This document shows, piece after piece, positions 19,847-29,158 of a DNA stretch of 64,000 nt (position 1 is its first letter; each line of letters opens with the position of its first letter). The notes under the pieces were generated by a model. That model was not told the origin of the DNA and did no database searches. It saw only the letters and a program-made list of their open reading frames with translations. The DNA is from Thiocapsa bogorovii (GTDB lineage Bacteria > Pseudomonadota > Gammaproteobacteria > Chromatiales > Chromatiaceae), in assembly GCF_021228795.1 (NCBI RefSeq), contig NZ_CP089309.1, forward strand, positions 868,001 to 932,000, read 5' to 3'. The translations under genes and the position numbers were made by a program.

Positions 19847-19984
19847 GCGGTCTCGATCGCGATTGATCACGCCCGATGCGGCAACCCCGCCCGCCCGGCT
19901 CGCGCCGGCGGGCGGAAATCACGTGCGACCGCGGGCCCTGACCCCGGCCGGCTAAGCATCCAAACAGCATGTAAGGTGACAACG

Positions 19985-20590
19985 ATGAAGAAACTCGCCC
20001 AATTGACCTTGGCGGGCACGCTCGCGCTATGCCCCCTTCTGCTCTCGGCACAGACCGCGACCGACAACGTCCCGGTGGCCGCGGGGGCGACGGTGAAGGA
20101 AGTCGAAGGCACGGTCGTGGTCGTCAATACCGAGACCCGAATGCTGACCATCCGCAAGCCAGACGGCGTCTTTCAGGTCATCCATGTCCCGCCCGAGGTG
20201 ACACGACTCGACGAAGTGAGGATCAACGACACGCTGACGATCGCCTACATGGAGGCCGTCGCGATCGATCTGCAGAAGGGAGACGCCGCTGCCGGCGCGC
20301 CGGCGGCCACGGCAACCATGGATGTGGACCGTGAAGCGGGACGTTTGCCCGCCGGCTCCATGTCGGAAACCGTCCGAATCGTCGGTATCGTCGAAGCCGT
20401 CAATCAAGCCAATTCGACGGCCACCATCCGAGGCCCCGAGAACACGATTACGGTCAACGTTCGCGATCCCGCAATGCTCGAGGGTGTTCGCGCAGGTGAC
20501 AGCGTCACCGTAACCTACATGAACGCGGTCGCGGCCCGGGTCGATCGAGGGAGCAGCGCGACAAGACCGATGCGGCCGGGTTCGCAATGA
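19985..20590 (+). CDS. Exported protein with two copies of a beta-rich domain
   Basis: A 201-residue secreted protein with a signal peptide (KLAQLTLAGTLALCPLLLSA). The mature chain has two related modules of about 65 residues: the first from TVKEVEGTVVVVNTETRMLT to the line INDTLTIAYMEAVAIDL, the second from VRIVGIVEAVNQANSTATI to AGDSVTVTYMNAVAARV. They share an order of strands and the D(T/S)(L/V)T(I/V)xYM(E/N)AVA motif, so they arose by duplication. Start ATG at 19985 follows AAGGTG. Function unknown. Confidence 0.72.
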   Translation: MKKLAQLTLAGTLALCPLLLSAQTATDNVPVAAGATVKEVEGTVVVVNTETRMLTIRKPDGVFQVIHVPPEVTRLDEVRINDTLTIAYMEAVAIDLQKGDAAAGAPAATATMDVDREAGRLPAGSMSETVRIVGIVEAVNQANSTATIRGPENTITVNVRDPAMLEGVRAGDSVTVTYMNAVAARVDRGSSATRPMRPGSQ

Positions 20591-20679: not shown

Positions 20680-22740
20680 GTGAGCCTCTTGGACCCCACG
20701 TTACCGAGCCCGGTCACAAAACGGCCTTTGTTTCGGGACTTGCGCAGACCCCTGACCGACTGGATCAAGATCCCCTGGCCGCTCTATTTCGCCGCGGGCC
20801 TGGTCGGGGCTCTGGCCGGGCTTGCCGGGGCCGCCTTCCACGCCGTCCTCGACCAGGCCGACCATGGCCGTGAGGTCTTGAGGGCGAGTCTGGGCTCAGC
20901 GCCGCTTCCGGGCTGGCTTGTGCTGATGGGCGCGGGTGCGCTGGTCCTTGTTCTTGCACTCTGGATCGTGCGCCGCTTCGCCCCCGAGACCGCCGGTAGC
21001 GGCGTCCAGGAGGTCGAGGCGATCCTCGCCGGACAACGCACAATGCGTTGGCGGCGGGTTCTACCAGTCAAATTCGTCGCGGGGACCCTGGCGGTGGGCT
21101 CCGGCCTGGTCCTGGGACGCGAGGGCCCGACGATCCACATGGGCGCCGCCCTCGGTCAGATGGCCTCCGAGCGGATGGCGCAGAACAATGGCCAAGGTCG
21201 CACCCTGATCGCGGCCGGCGCCGCTGCAGGTCTCGCCGCCGCCTTCAACGCCCCGCTCGCGGCCATCGTCTTTGTGACCGAGGAGCTACGCGAAAACTTC
21301 GAATTCAGTTTTGCCGCGATCCAGTCGGTCATCCTGGCCTGCTGCGCAGCCGTGGTGGTCAGCGGCTGGATCCTGGGGCAAGGACCGGACCTTCCGATCC
21401 CGAATCTCGTCATGGCCCCGCTTTGGGCGCTTCCCCTGTTCCTGATCCTGGGCGTCCTGATCGGAACCCTGGGGGTCATCTTCAACGGCCTGCTCTTGGG
21501 ATCGGTGCACGCCTTCCGCGCCCTGCCCAAAAATCTGCCGTATCTGGCCGCAGCCGCGGTCGGGATGGCCTTGGGAGCACTCCTTTGGCTCGTCCCCGAC
21601 GCGGTCGGAGGCGGCGAAGGATTGGTCGAGTCACTCCCGGGGAAACAGACCGGCATTCTGCTCTTGCTTGGTCTGCTCGCGGTGCGCGTGCTCACGAGTG
21701 TCGGTAGCTACGGGGTCGGACTGCCCGGCGGCATCTTCGCGCCAATGCTCGCACTCGGCACCATCGCCGGCGCACTGTTCGCCGATCTGGTGGCCCTGCT
21801 CGCGCCGACCCTGTCCTTGGCGCCCGGCGTCTTCGCAGTCGCTGCCATGGGCGCGCTCTTCGCCGCCACCGTGCGCGCACCCTTGACCGGGATCATCCTC
21901 GTGATCGAGCTGACCGGCGCGGAAGCGCTGGCGCTGCCGATTATTCTCACATGCCTCACGGCGACCTTCACCGCCGAGGCCATGGGCGGCCACCCCATCT
22001 ACAGTCTCCTGCTTGGCCTTGGCGATCGCCCTGCGCCGCGGGCCCCGGGACGCAGAATCCTGGCCGTCGGAATGATTCTGGCCGCGATGGTGGCGGCGGA
22101 TCGCCTGCATGTCTCACGGGAGACTGCGGATATCGCGGCACTCCCGCCAACCACCGACGCGGGCCAAGCTGTCCCGGCATCGACGCCGGATGACGAGGGC
22201 ACGCGGACCGTGACGCCTTCGAGCCAAGCGCAAGCCCGCACGGCCCCGTCCTCGCAGGCGCAGATCCGGACGACGGATCGTCCCCCCGAACCGCAACCGC
22301 ACGGGCCTGCGATCGCGCGCGAGATGCCCGAGGTCGGCTCGCCGGCGCCTCTCGCCAACGCGGCGCCACCCGAGGCCGACCGAACGACGCGCGTGCAAGA
22401 CGTGACGAGCACCGGGATGGAGGCGCCGGCACCCGTCACCGAACACCCTGCCCCGGAACCCGCTCCGGTCGTCGAGCGGGTCCGTTACAGCATCCAGCTC
22501 ATCAGCTTCCGCAAAGCATCGAGCATGGCCCCCTTCGCACGACGCGAAGGTGTCCTGGATCAAGCGCGCACACTGGACGCGGATGCGAGCCGTTCAAGCT
22601 GGCATCAGGTCTTGATCGGGGACTTCGGGAACCGCGATGAGGCCGAGGCCGCGCTTGCGCGGTTGCCCGATCGCCTGCGCGACCTCAAGCCGATGATCCG
22701 TGCCCTCTCGCCAGAGGAGCGCCTAGCGCCCCTTCGATAA
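20680..22740 (+). CDS. CLC-type chloride/proton exchanger fused to a C-terminal SPOR domain
   Basis: A 686-residue fusion. Residues about 30-450 form a CLC channel/exchanger with all three anion motifs: GSGVQEVEA, GREGPTIHMG (with the gating Glu) and GLPGGIFAPML. The inner proton-path Glu is in FVTEELRENF and the pore Tyr in GHPIYSLLLG, so it should exchange chloride for protons. A further hydrophobic segment and a Pro/Ala/Thr-rich linker of about 140 residues lead to a SPOR domain (RYSIQLISFRKASSM to DFGNRDEAEAALARLP, about 602-672). SPOR domains bind denuded peptidoglycan, usually at the division septum. GTG 20680 is the start. CLC proteins with SPOR are not a standard architecture. Confidence 0.88.
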   Translation: MSLLDPTLPSPVTKRPLFRDLRRPLTDWIKIPWPLYFAAGLVGALAGLAGAAFHAVLDQADHGREVLRASLGSAPLPGWLVLMGAGALVLVLALWIVRRFAPETAGSGVQEVEAILAGQRTMRWRRVLPVKFVAGTLAVGSGLVLGREGPTIHMGAALGQMASERMAQNNGQGRTLIAAGAAAGLAAAFNAPLAAIVFVTEELRENFEFSFAAIQSVILACCAAVVVSGWILGQGPDLPIPNLVMAPLWALPLFLILGVLIGTLGVIFNGLLLGSVHAFRALPKNLPYLAAAAVGMALGALLWLVPDAVGGGEGLVESLPGKQTGILLLLGLLAVRVLTSVGSYGVGLPGGIFAPMLALGTIAGALFADLVALLAPTLSLAPGVFAVAAMGALFAATVRAPLTGIILVIELTGAEALALPIILTCLTATFTAEAMGGHPIYSLLLGLGDRPAPRAPGRRILAVGMILAAMVAADRLHVSRETADIAALPPTTDAGQAVPASTPDDEGTRTVTPSSQAQARTAPSSQAQIRTTDRPPEPQPHGPAIAREMPEVGSPAPLANAAPPEADRTTRVQDVTSTGMEAPAPVTEHPAPEPAPVVERVRYSIQLISFRKASSMAPFARREGVLDQARTLDADASRSSWHQVLIGDFGNRDEAEAALARLPDRLRDLKPMIRALSPEERLAPLR

Positions 22741-23464: not shown

Positions 23465-23854
23465 TCATTGGGGGATCTTGATCGTTGCTCCGGCCTTGAT
23501 CTCATTTCCCTTCATGCCGTTGAGTTTTTCGATCGACGCAACGCTCGTGCCGAATCGATTGCTGATCGCATACAGATCATCGCCTTTCGCGACCTTGTAC
23601 GTTCCGTTGTCCGGGTTATAGCGGCCTGTCGCATGCGCCGGCGGAATATAGATCACCGATCCCACCTCGATCTCTTCGGCCGTCTTTCCATTGGTCACCA
23701 AGATATCCTCGACGCTGACATCGTAAGTGCCTGCAATCGTCTCGATGTCTTCGTTTTCGGTCACCGTGTAGGCGACTGCGCTGTCGGATGCGGCGTACAC
23801 AGACGTCACGCTGATGGCCAGAGTCGCAGCAACAGCAAGGGTCTTGATCGTCAT
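23465..23854 (-). CDS. Exported protein with two LysM domains
   Basis: A 129-residue secreted protein with a signal peptide (TLAVAATLAISVTSVYA) and two LysM modules. The first is VAYTVTENEDIETIAGTYDV to VGSVIYIPP, the second is GTYKVAKGDDLYAISNRFGT to IKAGATIKIPQ. LysM binds peptidoglycan, so the protein should sit in the periplasm or cell wall. The second module, with its GRYNPDNGTYKV lead-in, closely resembles the LysM modules fused to the arylsulfatase and the DUF1254 protein further right. GGAGAAC before the ATG fits a ribosome-binding site. Confidence 0.85.
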   Translation of the reverse strand: MTIKTLAVAATLAISVTSVYAASDSAVAYTVTENEDIETIAGTYDVSVEDILVTNGKTAEEIEVGSVIYIPPAHATGRYNPDNGTYKVAKGDDLYAISNRFGTSVASIEKLNGMKGNEIKAGATIKIPQ

Positions 23855-24069
23855 AGTGTTCTCCTAATGGATGGATGATGGCGGGTCATTCGCTTTATTT
23901 CGGCGAAGCCGGGTTGATACCTGAATGCAGAGTTTCAAGTGAGTGAAAAAGGTTCACGCATCCCCAACCCCGATGGCGATGCCGTTTTGTTCGAAAGAAT
24001 ACACCTTCTCTATTGATCGATGTCGTCATGACGCACCACTGCCCGGACGAGTGACCGGTTGAAGAGGCC

Positions 24070-24903
24070 TCACCAACGGAATCCTACGCCCAAGGCCGGG
24101 CCCGACAAGGTCAGCTCGGCGTCGTTCCCGTTGAATTCGTAACCGATGGCGCGCCACGCCAATGTCGCCTCGCCCCAATCGAACCGATATCCTAGCCCCA
24201 GAATAGCTTGCCAGGTCAGATCGGACGAACCGGTCCCGATGTCCGCGTAAAAGGGTACGAACCAGGGGGTATTCCGGACCGAGTATTCACTGCGGATCCC
24301 GATGATACCGTCCCAATTGCTCTGATCCATCGACGCCTTGGTCGAGCCTAATAACTGACCGCGCTCATCCGTGAAATCAACTGTCAAGTCATTGTTCAGT
24401 TCAAGGTATCGAAATCCGCCGATTAAGTCCAGGCTCCAAGGCGCTTCGTCCGCCACACGATAGCCGCCGGCGAATGTCCAGATGATCGAATTCATATCCG
24501 TCTTGGTATCGCGGGTGACCCGCGGAACGGCACCAAGAGGTCCGGTGACATTGCGAATTCGGGTGTCCTGACTTCCCAAGTCGGCGTAAATGATATCGGT
24601 CAAGATCGCCCAATGTCCCTTGCGTGCCTCGCCGGTCAGCATGAACGCCATATCCAGATTACTGAGATAGTTATCGGGATTGACCGTGCCGCTGACCTCC
24701 AGTCGTCTCGGCGTCCCGCCTAAGGGTCCGGGAAGGCCGTCGACGGTGGTGTCGATGCTCCCGGTGACGGCGGGGAACCAGAGATACGGCATGAGATTGA
24801 ACTGCCAACCTCCGTCTCCGGATTCGGCGGCCGCACCGCTTGACAGCCCGAGCGCCGCACAAGCACACGCATAGGGTCCGAGAGTCCTGAGTATTTGACG
24901 CAT
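24070..24903 (-). CDS. Outer-membrane beta-barrel protein
   Basis: A 277-residue secreted protein with signal peptide (LRTLGPYACACAALGLSSGA). The mature chain is made of alternating strands: GGWQFNLMPYLWFPAVTGSI, SLDLIGGFRYLELNNDLTV, and GLGYRFDWGEATLAWRAIGY. It ends in the aromatic residue pattern LGVGFRW expected for barrel insertion. A strong GGAGGACACCA precedes ATG 24903; the open frame upstream is spurious. Function unknown; such proteins are often annotated as hypothetical porin-like barrels. Confidence 0.75.
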   Translation of the reverse strand: MRQILRTLGPYACACAALGLSSGAAAESGDGGWQFNLMPYLWFPAVTGSIDTTVDGLPGPLGGTPRRLEVSGTVNPDNYLSNLDMAFMLTGEARKGHWAILTDIIYADLGSQDTRIRNVTGPLGAVPRVTRDTKTDMNSIIWTFAGGYRVADEAPWSLDLIGGFRYLELNNDLTVDFTDERGQLLGSTKASMDQSNWDGIIGIRSEYSVRNTPWFVPFYADIGTGSSDLTWQAILGLGYRFDWGEATLAWRAIGYEFNGNDAELTLSGPALGVGFRW

Positions 24904-25150
24904 TGGTGTCCTCCGCCTGAACTGATCATCGCCGTGACGGCGCCCGGCCTCCGACCTCATGCCCTCCGGCAAATCCCCCGCGGGCTCGGCGCGAGGACTT
25001 GCCGAAACCAAAATTGAAGCGAACGGAAGTATGCGCATTCCACAGCTCGACGTCTTGACATTTCGCGACACGACAACCGGCATTCGGCGCGTGTGCGGTT
25101 CGCTCGGTCATGAATCTGCGGCCTTAAACCTGATCGGACAGTAGGCCGCA

Positions 25151-25615
25151 TCAGACGAGGTGGCGCGTCCAGATCGCCTGAATAACGACAAACAGAAACG
25201 CGGTCGAACATCCGAATTTGAGCAGTCCGGCAATCGCGATGAGCGGACCCAGCATGCGCCAGGGCGGCAGAAGAACCACATCCCCGTAACCGAGGGCGGT
25301 CACCGTGACGGCCGTGAAATAGATTCCGTCCGCATAGGTCCGCGTCAGCCCTTGCCCCCACACATAGAGGCCCCACACGGCAGCCTCTGCGAGGTGAGCG
25401 GCAAACAGCATGGCGAAGCACCCGAAGATGATCACCTTTCCGGCTCGACCTGCGCCAAGGTGCTCGATCAGCGGATCGACGTTGCGCAGAACCAAAGCGG
25501 CCGACTCAAACAGCAGGCTCGTGTGGAAAAAGAACAACACGCAGGCGACGAGGACCGCGAAGCCGAATACGCGGCGGACCCGGCGCCGCCCTGTCCCTTC
25601 TGCTCGATTCGACAT
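25151..25615 (-). CDS. Two-TM potassium-channel-like protein
   Basis: A 154-residue membrane protein. The pore region reads YFTAVTVTALGYGDVVLLPP, close to the TVGYGD filter of potassium channels but with ALGYGD. At least one long hydrophobic segment precedes it (VIIFGCFAMLFAAHLAEAAV) plus an N-terminal one, and one follows. No RCK domain is attached. GGAGG ahead of ATG 25615 fixes the start. Whether it conducts potassium selectively cannot be judged from the altered filter. It lies just downstream (minus strand) of the MscK-like gene. Confidence 0.78.
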   Translation of the reverse strand: MSNRAEGTGRRRVRRVFGFAVLVACVLFFFHTSLLFESAALVLRNVDPLIEHLGAGRAGKVIIFGCFAMLFAAHLAEAAVWGLYVWGQGLTRTYADGIYFTAVTVTALGYGDVVLLPPWRMLGPLIAIAGLLKFGCSTAFLFVVIQAIWTRHLV

Positions 25616-25673
25616 AACACCTCCTCGCTCATACGACAATCCCGGCAAATCATGAATCCAAGCGTTCCACCGA

Positions 25674-25696
25674 GAATAGGGATCCGAGCCCTATTC
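25674..25696. repeat. Inverted repeat between the two channel genes
   Basis: GAATAGGG and CCCTATTC pair perfectly (8 bp) around a 7-nt loop. It lies between the end of the mechanosensitive channel gene and the start of the 2-TM channel gene. There is no T-run on either side, so an attenuator or operator is as likely as a terminator. Confidence 0.45.
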
Positions 25697-25735
25697 ATAC
25701 ACAGAATGACAGCGCCGATTGATTGTGCGTTGTGG

Positions 25736-28700
25736 TCAACGATCGACGGGGCTCGCGTGCTCGATCTGCACCCGCAGCGGCTTGATGGTGTCCAGATGCA
25801 AGTCGCGCTGCGGGAAGGCGATGCTGATGCCGGCGGCATTGAACTTGTCGTTGATGGCCACGTTCAGCGCGCTGATGGTGCTGACGCGCAAATCGATGGA
25901 ATCGACGAAGCAACGCAGCAGCAGGCCGAGTGAATTGTCGCCGAAGGTGTCGAAGATCACCGTAGGGGCCGGGTCATCGAGCACGTTGGGGTTCTCTCTT
26001 GCCGCCTCCTCCAGCAGATCCATGGCCTGGCGCACCGGCGATCCATAGGCGACGCCTATAGCGAGGACCAGTCGCGTGGTGCGATCCGACAGCGACCAAT
26101 TGAGTAGGCGCCCGGTGATGAACTCCTTGTTCGGCACCAGCAACTCCTTGCCGTCCCAATTACGGATAGTGGTGGCGCGAATCTTGATCTTGGTGACGAC
26201 GCCGTCGGTTTCGCCGACGGTCACGGCATCGCCGACACGGATCGGTCGCTCGAACAGGATAATCAACCCGCTGATAAAGTTGGCGACGATCTCCTGCAGG
26301 CCGAAGCCGATGCCGACGCTGAGCGCCGCCGCCAGCCATTGGACTTGCGACCAACGCGCGCCGAGCGTGCTGAGCACCAGCAATAGACCCGCCGCGACGA
26401 CGACGTAAGTCGTCAGCGTGGTCACCGTATAGCGGCCGGCAGCGGTCGTCTTGAAGCGCTGCAGCAGCACGATCTCCAGCAGTGCCGGGAGGCGATCCGC
26501 CAGCACCCAGGTGCCGATGGCATACAGCAGCGCCAGACCGAGGTTCCCCAGCGTGATGGGCAGCGGCTGCTCCGCGCCATCGACGATGACGGTCCCGTGC
26601 CACAAGACCACCTCATCGAAGATCTGCAGCGCCGGCAGGGCGCTGAACCAGATCAGGTAGAGCCCGAAGATGGCGGAGGTGAGCATCAGTATCCGGATCA
26701 GCCCGCGCGTCTCGTCGCTCAGCGCCGTAATATCCACTTCCGGTTCTTCGAATTCCAGCTCACCCATCTCACCGAGGGCCTCTTCCTCTTCGGCCTCCTC
26801 TTGCTCCGCGCGTCGACGTTCCATAGCGGCCTCATAGGCGAGGCGCCGTCTGGTGACCTGCAGCCAGCGCAAGGCGAGTGAGTTGCCGAGCACCAGCGTC
26901 AACAGGAACCAGAGCGTCAGCAAGAATAGATAGGAAAAGGCCGTGGCCGTGTAGACGTAACCGGTAAAGGCAAGGGCGATCAATCCCAGGGGAGAGGCGA
27001 CGAGCAGCGGGTACCAGATGAGGTAGGTACGGAAGATCATCGGGTAGTCGCCGCCTGATCGCAGGTGCGCAAGCACGCCACGCCGGGGATGCAAGACTCG
27101 GTAGAGGAACCACGACAGTGGCAGGTAGCCAAACAGCAGACCAAGCTTGGCCAAGGTCCCGCCGCTCTGGGCCTGGTCGATACCAAGCGCGACATCGACG
27201 ATTAAGGCCGCGGTCACGAACGGCCAAATGAACAGCATGAGCTGCGTTCGCAACAGCTTCAGATTGCGCTCCGGCCAGCGAAAATGTGCCGCCGCCAACC
27301 CCCGCGGTCGGCAACCGGCGATAAAACCGAGCAGAATGGCAAAATGCAGGGCGGCCCGCGTCAGTGCTTCGCCCAGGGCGTGGGACAGCTCTGTCGCGCC
27401 GCTGTCGGTCTGAAGCTGCCAGCCCGCGGCCGCCAAGAGCAAGGGTAGCGGTGCCGCGAGCATCAGGGTCAGGCCCAGGACCCGCCCGGTATAGTTCATG
27501 CGGTCCGTGGTGGGTTTGCCGATACGGGGCGCGACCGATTCGATGGCGGCGATGATCGCTCGGCGTCGCAACAGTAAGACGCCAGCGCCGACCACGGCCA
27601 GCCAGAAGACGGGGCTGCGCCAGAGCTGCTGGCCGATCAGGCGCGGCAAGTCCGGCAGACCAGCGGCCGCGAGCCGGGCACGGAGTTCGCTCGGCATCGT
27701 GCGGATGTCCTGCAGTTGGATCGGTTTGGCGTTACGCAACCAGGGGAGTTGCTCGTCCAAGAAGGCGTCGTATTCAGCGGCCGTTGTGAGCAACGCCTCC
27801 TCCGCCTCGTCGAGCTCCCGCAGCTTGCCGAGGTAGGTTTGATCGGTCTTCAATGCCTGGTCGAGTAGTTCCTGGCGCTGCTGCACCAGCTCTTGCAACT
27901 TGACCTTCTGTGCCTCGGTCCACGCATGAGCCGCAGCCTCGGGCGTCCCCGACGCATCGGCCTGGAGCGCCAGCGCAAGCCGCTCGACGGTGGCATCCGT
28001 ATCCTCGATGCGTCGCGCCTCGGCGCGATGCTGCAGCCGGCGCACGTTGAGGTCGGCGATTGTCTGCCTGCGCTGTTCGTCGTTCTGAACAAAGGCCCGC
28101 AGGTCTGGCAGGGCCTCGAACTGCTGCAGCAGGGTTTTGCCAAGATCGTCGTTGACCTCACCGGACTCCAGCGTTTCACGGGCATCTTGGTAATCGGCGC
28201 CAATCTGCTCGACGAGTTGCTCCAGGTTCTGCCGCACCAGATCCTGCGCCTGAAGCTGCTGGGTGGTGTCGTTGATGGCCCGGGACAGTGCCGCGTTTTC
28301 CGCGGATAACTCGGCCAAGACCGGGTTCGTCCCCGCGAGCTCGCGCTGGGTCTGCTCGGCTTCCGTCGCTGCTTGTTCCGCCGCTTGGCGGCGTTTTCGG
28401 TCGAGCAGGTCGTTGAGTATCTGAATGCGCTCGTCGATGCCTTCGACATTCGCCGCTTCCCTATCGCGCTTTGCCTCCAGCAATTGCGTCCGCAGCGGCA
28501 GGGTCGAGAGTTCCTGCTCGAGCATCGTGGTCTCGGTGTTCAACGCCACGTAGCGCGTTTCCAGCACCCACTTTTGGGCCTGCGCAAACGTGGGCCCTAC
28601 ATCATCCCCGACCGGGGTCTGAATCTGCGCCGAGGCCTCTTCGCGTTGTTGCGTTGCCTCCGCAAGGCGCTGGCTGATGGCCGCCGGGCGCTGATCGAAA

Positions 28701-29158
28701 ATGGCCAGACGGGACTCGAAATCCACGCGCCGCGCATCGGCCGCGGTCAGGTCCGCTTGTTCCTTTTGCAGTTCTTGTTCGAGTTCGGGCAGCGGGGTAT
28801 TCGCATCCGCCTCTAAGCTGTCGAGTGGGTCGCCCTGGGCATCCGGCGTAAGCGCCGCGCGGATGGACTGGATCTCGGCTGGCGCGCGTTCGGCCCTGCG
28901 CTGGAACGTGGCGGCCGATGCGGCGTTGTCCTTTGCCGCCTGCAGATTGCTCAACGCCTTACGGTAGAGTTCGAGAAGCCGCGTCTTCGCCTCCTCGGTC
29001 CTGTCGGTTGCCGCCTCCGTTTCCGCGATCTTCGACTCCAGCGCCTCCGAGGTGACCAACGATCCGGGCAACGCGCTGTCGACCTCCTGAGCACAGGCGG
29101 ACGACGGCCACGTTGCCCATAGCGCGCAGGCGGTGATGACAAAGACAAAGGTTCGCAT
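25736..29158 (-). CDS. Large mechanosensitive channel, MscK/KefA type
   Basis: A 1140-residue inner-membrane protein, similar in size to E. coli MscK (1120). Order: signal peptide (FVFVITACALWATWPSSACA), a periplasmic helical domain of about 450 residues, around eight hydrophobic segments from residue 520 to 860, then the MscS pore and beta domain. The latter is seen as LSVGIGFGLQEIVANFISG, ILFERPIRVGDAVTVG and NWDGKELLVPNKEFITGRLL. It would open under membrane tension and release solutes. It is followed by the 2-TM channel gene. Gene name mscK is plausible but paralogues are common. Confidence 0.9.
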   Translation of the reverse strand: MRTFVFVITACALWATWPSSACAQEVDSALPGSLVTSEALESKIAETEAATDRTEEAKTRLLELYRKALSNLQAAKDNAASAATFQRRAERAPAEIQSIRAALTPDAQGDPLDSLEADANTPLPELEQELQKEQADLTAADARRVDFESRLAIFDQRPAAISQRLAEATQQREEASAQIQTPVGDDVGPTFAQAQKWVLETRYVALNTETTMLEQELSTLPLRTQLLEAKRDREAANVEGIDERIQILNDLLDRKRRQAAEQAATEAEQTQRELAGTNPVLAELSAENAALSRAINDTTQQLQAQDLVRQNLEQLVEQIGADYQDARETLESGEVNDDLGKTLLQQFEALPDLRAFVQNDEQRRQTIADLNVRRLQHRAEARRIEDTDATVERLALALQADASGTPEAAAHAWTEAQKVKLQELVQQRQELLDQALKTDQTYLGKLRELDEAEEALLTTAAEYDAFLDEQLPWLRNAKPIQLQDIRTMPSELRARLAAAGLPDLPRLIGQQLWRSPVFWLAVVGAGVLLLRRRAIIAAIESVAPRIGKPTTDRMNYTGRVLGLTLMLAAPLPLLLAAAGWQLQTDSGATELSHALGEALTRAALHFAILLGFIAGCRPRGLAAAHFRWPERNLKLLRTQLMLFIWPFVTAALIVDVALGIDQAQSGGTLAKLGLLFGYLPLSWFLYRVLHPRRGVLAHLRSGGDYPMIFRTYLIWYPLLVASPLGLIALAFTGYVYTATAFSYLFLLTLWFLLTLVLGNSLALRWLQVTRRRLAYEAAMERRRAEQEEAEEEEALGEMGELEFEEPEVDITALSDETRGLIRILMLTSAIFGLYLIWFSALPALQIFDEVVLWHGTVIVDGAEQPLPITLGNLGLALLYAIGTWVLADRLPALLEIVLLQRFKTTAAGRYTVTTLTTYVVVAAGLLLVLSTLGARWSQVQWLAAALSVGIGFGLQEIVANFISGLIILFERPIRVGDAVTVGETDGVVTKIKIRATTIRNWDGKELLVPNKEFITGRLLNWSLSDRTTRLVLAIGVAYGSPVRQAMDLLEEAARENPNVLDDPAPTVIFDTFGDNSLGLLLRCFVDSIDLRVSTISALNVAINDKFNAAGISIAFPQRDLHLDTIKPLRVQIEHASPVDR

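Follow-up and report, generated by a model that had tools for sequence, protein, structure and literature searches.

One gene in the 64,000-nucleotide stretch of Thiocapsa bogorovii DNA analysed here (the window) joins a ClcA-type chloride/proton exchanger to a SPOR domain, and this CLC-SPOR fusion is genuine and conserved. The initial annotation had placed it at positions 20680–22740, and both the coordinates and the frame are correct, the gene being a single open reading frame of the plus strand that encodes 686 amino acids; the start codon is less certain, with candidates in the first 40 codons at 20680 (GTG) and at 20689, 20728 and 20740 (all TTG). The window genome is assembled as a single contig of 5.65 Mb, which makes a contig misjoin unlikely, and this together with a layout common to 18 of 19 orthologues rules out either a misjoin or a frameshift artefact. 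When the 686-residue protein is compared with Pfam, Voltage_CLC and SPOR are the only matches up to E 1. The features of the gene are collected in Table 1.

Table 1. The CLC-SPOR gene, its predicted parts and its upstream neighbor. Positions are those of the window; residue roles are as given in parts of the cited papers.
Feature	Position	Strand	Basis or remark
CLC-SPOR fusion gene	20680..22740	+	686 aa, one open frame, GTG start (uncertain)
ClcA-type exchanger core, residues 33-446	20776..22017	+	Pfam, NCBIfam and PDB matches
Ser107 (ClcA S107), chloride coordination and inner gate	20998..21000	+	ClcA alignment; 19/19 orthologues; role PMC12248016
Glu148 (ClcA E148), external gating and proton-transfer glutamate	21121..21123	+	ClcA alignment; role PMC12248016
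Glu202 (ClcA E203), internal proton-pathway glutamate	21283..21285	+	ClcA alignment; role PMC12248016, PMC10394335
Tyr441 (ClcA Y445), inner gate	22000..22002	+	ClcA alignment; role PMC12248016
Hydrophobic segment after helix R, RILAVGMILAAMVAADR, residues 459-475, preceded by an Arg-rich stretch	22054..22104	+	predicted additional transmembrane helix
Pro/Ala/Thr-rich linker, residues 481-600, fast evolving	22120..22479	+	
SPOR domain, DamX-like, residues 602-674	22483..22701	+	Pfam match
Gln606 (DamX Q351 / RlpA Q270), putative glycan-contacting glutamine	22495..22497	+	invariant 18/18; role PMC6895207
Trp641	22600..22602	+	invariant 18/18; FtsN W283-like position, alignment read by eye
Arg674, aligned with DamX K418 (basic patch)	22699..22701	+	invariant 18/18
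Upstream co-oriented small protein, signal-like start	19976..20590	+	weak CusF_Ec similarity, below cut-off

Judged by its sequence, the protein is a ClcA-type member of the CLC family. Voltage_CLC matches residues 90–432 (E 2.7e-94, 316.6 bits against a cut-off of 24.8), the ClcA equivalog model NF003640 of NCBIfam scores 460.6 bits where 350 are needed, and the best ClcA structures in the PDB align over residues 5–446 or 19–446. The ion path had been described as complete, and this description stands: in the alignment to E. coli ClcA, residues S107, E148, E202, F353 and Y441 occupy the positions of S107, E148, E203, F357 and Y445, and all are invariant among the 19 orthologues. The roles of the gating, inner-gate and proton-path residues of CLC proteins (Ser107, Glu148, Glu203 and Tyr445) are set out in part of PMC12248016, and those of the residues responsible for exchange by CLC proteins, the internal proton-pathway glutamate included, in part of PMC10394335. 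The fusion protein presumably transports as a 2Cl-/1H+ exchanger. In place of the CLC signature GSGIP (window 20995–21009), 18 of the 19 orthologues have GSGVQ or GSGIQ, with Q at the position of ClcA P110. Several relatives without the fusion, L064 and L065 among them, share this change, and the altered selectivity motif is therefore rejected as a peculiarity of the fusion.

The C-terminal domain had been taken for a SPOR domain, and a profile search bears this out. The Pfam SPOR match scores 27.7 bits against a cut-off of 21 (E 3.5e-6) in the full protein and 33.2 bits (E 6.7e-8) when the C-terminal region is scanned alone, while NCBIfam gives no match for the SPOR domain of the window protein. 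Scanned one by one, the SPOR regions of all 18 SPOR-bearing orthologues give a Pfam SPOR match with E no higher than 0.1. With an 18-member profile made from these regions the best solved structure is E. coli DamX (2lfv, E 6.7e-9), and among the chains listed nine others lie at E 0.15 or worse; the significance of the DamX match comes from the use of this profile, since the window domain as a single sequence reaches DamX at only E 0.25, third in the list. A chance SPOR match is ruled out by the 18 matching regions and the DamX profile match. Part of PMC6895207 describes SPOR domains as recognizing denuded, mostly septal, glycan rather than the wall in general; there RlpA Q270, equivalent to DamX Q351, touches glycan, DamX Q351, S354 and W416 are important for septal localization, and a basic patch includes DamX K418. 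In the fusion proteins the glycan-contact glutamine of strand beta1 is invariant in 18 of 18, position 609, which corresponds to DamX S354, is Ser or Thr in all of them, and the position of W416 in strand beta4 is occupied by Met, Ile or Leu, so that this tryptophan is not kept. We infer that the domain binds denuded glycan.

CLC proteins normally end in the cytoplasm, and a wall-binding role for the SPOR domain would fail without an extra membrane segment. A candidate for such a segment, which the initial annotation did not mention, is found shortly after helix R in all 19 orthologues, one in each. Located by motif, it has a mean hydropathy over 19 residues of 1.62–2.25 (Kyte-Doolittle values), and Lys and Arg are more numerous in the 12 residues before it than in those after it in 18 of the 19, with a tie in L018. 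Among the 49 unfused CLCs that were fetched, no such segment was seen after helix R, although in 19 of them the tail is shorter than 19 residues; the 30 measurable tails reach a maximum hydropathy of 0.92 in their first 60 residues and 1.30 anywhere, measured by mapped position, a procedure that slips at linker indels in fusion rows such as L012, L015 and L018 and is relied on for the unfused rows only. The extra segment predicts one more crossing, with the linker and SPOR domain in the periplasm, and at the level of prediction it thus favors the periplasmic C-terminus that the initial annotation had assumed. Its insertion into the membrane is uncertain, because the hydrophobic core is short (the longest uninterrupted hydrophobic stretch in the window protein is 14 residues) and because a crude insertion sum over 19 residues, unweighted, based on biological-scale values and without a known-helix control, is positive (1.2–7.0) in 19 of 19 orthologues. 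A full-length AlphaFold2 model made with four sequences in the alignment has a mean pLDDT of 34 and is unusable.

Between the exchanger and the SPOR domain lies a linker of the disordered type, as had been proposed: it ranges from 53 to 244 residues among the orthologues, 57–77% of its residues are Pro, Ala, Ser, Thr, Glu or Gln, and it evolves fast. Ratios of dN/dS, taken from nine chosen orthologue pairs of 153 and with the linker loosely aligned, are 0.05–0.17 for the CLC core, 0.00–0.30 for the region of the extra segment, 0.38–0.90 for the linker and 0.15–0.31 for SPOR. These values indicate that the SPOR domain is being kept and the linker sequence much less so, the constraint on SPOR being weaker than that on the CLC core.

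Full-length orthologues (L008–L026) number 19 among 194 genomes of the same family, one per genome, and 18 of them carry SPOR; for L013 and L016 the search match includes a stop codon located before the frame used. The carriers with names presumably include Thiocapsa sp. KS1, T. roseopersicina, Lamprobacter modestohalophilus and T. marina. In a tree of 61 CLC-core rows a branch supported at 100/100 separates the 19 orthologues from all other rows. The identity of the nearest unfused row is less certain (L064, at 90/54), and long branches lead to several of the outside rows; L064 is the closest unfused match, with 56% identity, and ends just after helix R. The tail was apparently gained once.

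Two departures from the common layout are present. The frame of L023 (L056, in G066) stops soon after the extra segment and before SPOR, and this is a natural SPOR-less form unless it reflects an assembly error. T. marina (G139) carries a degraded CLC-SPOR copy (L059, L041) in a gene order like that of the window, which was left out of the 19 orthologues, and on the same contig a second, full-length copy (L048) that adjoins a DedA gene. L023 and the degraded copy indicate that the tail or the gene has been dispensable at least once.

The fusion appears to be restricted to one family in the searches made. All 22 genomes with a match among 210 of the order (E 1e-45) belong to the same family. 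Searching 369 genomes of the class at the same threshold yields 15 matches in 14 genomes besides that of the window, all of which were fetched and none of which has the tail. Among 398 genomes of the phylum (E 1e-60) there are 30 matches besides the window, and none of the 21 fetched has it; the remaining 9 were assessed from the end point of the match and the length of the open frame, which is at most 510 residues, and a G652 match that seems to reach residue 599 stops after the CLC. In the family of the closest unfused relative one genome of three has a match, and it is unfused. In these samples of species, up to three candidates per genome were scored in the class, up to two in the phylum and five or six in the family and order, so that a lower-ranked or rarer independent fusion could be missed. 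Approached from the other end, the SPOR profile of the fusion proteins matches 215 of the 369 class genomes, DamX-like SPOR domains being common, and among the matches listed none of the 20 frames fetched from about 31 distinct ones longer than 600 residues is a CLC (one of the 20, L113, runs to a contig end). Of 72,556 plasmid records searched 367 match and none covers 80% of the query, and a literature search, read by title and the start of the abstract, found no paper joining CLC and SPOR.

The fusion combines features of several known systems. With E. coli ClcA (CLC-ec1) it shares the transport core, the gating and proton glutamates, Ser107 and the equivalent of Tyr445; ClcA stops soon after helix R with a cytoplasmic tail, whereas the fusion continues for about 240 further residues that comprise the extra hydrophobic segment, the linker and SPOR. 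CLCs with C-terminal CBS domains likewise consist of a CLC core and a C-terminal accessory region, which in their case is cytoplasmic; 13 of the 49 unfused CLCs have tails of 129–154 residues, which we take to be CBS domains, and these are without a hydrophobic segment of the fusion type. DamX, the septal SPOR protein of E. coli, has the closest solved SPOR domain by profile and a membrane-linker-SPOR layout with a single membrane helix, whereas the membrane part of the fusion is a multi-pass CLC exchanger and its SPOR domain departs from DamX at W416. The 20 long DamX-like SPOR proteins inspected from the class each show a single hydrophobic segment at most, and a Walker-A-like motif occurs in 14 of them; the fusion protein, on the evidence of its domain content, is not a DamX. 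FtsN, DedD and RlpA are likewise SPOR-bearing envelope proteins, none of them known as a transporter, and the SPOR profile resembles FtsN only below significance (E 0.33). Part of PMC6895207 reports SPOR domains on cell division or morphogenesis proteins, and with an ion exchanger SPOR domains would have acquired a new class of cargo.

The surroundings of the gene vary. There is no division gene among the ten neighboring ORFs scanned, which counts against the septal tether proposed below. In the window, L042 and L043 the upstream neighbor is the small protein of Table 1 instead of a DedA gene, and this protein also lies next to the degraded T. marina copy (L059). Genes for a two-LysM protein, a two-helix ion channel (Ion_trans_2) and a 1140-residue MscK-like mechanosensitive channel adjoin the fusion on the minus strand (window 23465–29158); the degraded T. 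marina locus is the only one of those compared that retains this order, and these osmotic-type neighbors are for that reason not used as functional evidence.

We propose that the fusion is an inner-membrane 2Cl-/1H+ exchanger tethered by its extra helix, linker and DamX-like SPOR domain to denuded septal peptidoglycan, a reading that we consider probable though far from certain, and in which we infer the membrane crossing, the septal placement and the benefit to the cell. An ordinary electrogenic ClcA-type exchanger would have gained a C-terminal anchor, in which the additional transmembrane helix brings the chain out to the periplasm and the flexible linker serves as a leash there. The SPOR domain would hold the exchanger on peptide-stripped glycan strands, that is, on septal wall made by division amidases, and Cl-/H+ exchange (charge shunting, Cl- extrusion, pH adjustment) would thereby be concentrated at the constricting envelope. 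This might serve local charge or proton balance, perhaps for a step of the lipid carrier driven by the proton motive force (PMF) where a DedA gene adjoins, or it might keep a proton-moving exchanger out of photosynthetic membranes.

A rival to this proposal is a cytoplasmic or non-functional tail, in which the segment would fail to span the membrane and the SPOR domain would be without a wall ligand. The short segment, the charged residues within its 19-residue window and the positive insertion sum throughout the orthologues would fit such a tail, as would the end of L023 before SPOR and the replacement of the DamX tryptophan; nonetheless, this reading seems quite unlikely, since the segment is present in every orthologue and was seen in none of the fetched unfused CLCs, and the purifying selection on SPOR in the nine chosen pairs and the invariant glycan glutamine also speak against it. 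Other explanations are compatible with a septal tether and differ from it on what the tether is for. SPOR occupancy might gate the exchanger and so couple anion and proton exchange to the state of the wall, which the direct covalent attachment of a transporter to a domain presumed to bind the wall would allow; however, a leash this long and variable fits tethering or recruitment better than mechanical gating, a fast-evolving linker of 53–244 residues would be a poor transmitter of force or conformation, and we consider wall sensing very unlikely.

Photosynthetic intracytoplasmic membranes have no wall, and the SPOR tether might mainly confine an electrogenic exchanger to the wall-lined peripheral membrane, away from those membranes, and not serve division. 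All five fusion genera have reaction-centre genes, as against 20 of the 61 genera sampled from the family (Fisher 0.0026, kinship ignored), and a reaction-centre match exceeds the cut-off in 17 of the 18 SPOR-bearing genomes compared with 77 of 194 genomes (Fisher 5.6e-7, kinship again ignored); the exception, G174, is 87% complete and has a weak match (E 6.3e-4) counted below the cut-off. Yet only 17 of the 77 genomes with reaction-centre genes have the fusion, the association may simply be ancestry since the fusion seems to have arisen once, and SPOR domains recognize denuded, mostly septal, glycan in the account given in part of PMC6895207, so that we regard membrane sorting as the main purpose of the tether as unlikely. 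A partnership in which the exchanger and a neighboring DedA protein balance charge or protons for recycling of the wall-lipid carrier at the growing septum draws on a DedA/VTT-domain gene that is a direct neighbor at 8 of 18 loci, co-oriented and directly upstream at 6 and divergent at 2 (the one member scanned matches PF09335 with 69.4 bits against 33.9). Proteins of the COG0586 type, to which this DedA may belong, are putative PMF-driven undecaprenyl-phosphate flippases in part of PMC10127716. Against such a partnership, the DedA neighbor is absent at 10 of the 18 loci, including the window (one of the ten, L024, lies on a 3.3-kb contig), and it scores 56.9 bits with the UptA model, far below the cut-off of 250. 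Of 12 close DedA homologues (66–100% identity, query included) 8 are those neighbors, and the others are one on another contig of a carrier and three in genomes in which no fusion was found; we accordingly hold the partnership, too, to be doubtful. A broader possibility, tentative and on balance somewhat improbable, is that this purple sulfur lineage has a wall-addressed exchanger that is both placed at the constricting envelope and kept away from the intracytoplasmic membranes, so that its ion and proton circuits would be spatially separated within a single continuous membrane.

Should the tail behave as predicted, it would show that bacteria control where ion transport takes place with respect to wall and septum, and a role of local Cl-/H+ exchange in constriction, or in protecting a photosynthetic proton circuit, becomes testable. 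The fusion would also be a clean case of a membrane protein whose C-terminus was moved across the membrane by the gain of one helix. The host has further SPOR-bearing proteins, encoded by FtsN-like and DedD-like genes, presumptive names that we give from their gene neighbors, and also a second DamX-like SPOR protein that matches the 18-member profile at E 2.9e-13. At L103 (G000:C1:1463626-1463868; 619–1764) a 381-residue protein that combines a DamX-like SPOR domain with a single hydrophobic segment is encoded directly before a glycosyltransferase, which we take to resemble sucrose-phosphate synthase, a neighborhood that hints at another link between the envelope and osmolyte or salt biology.
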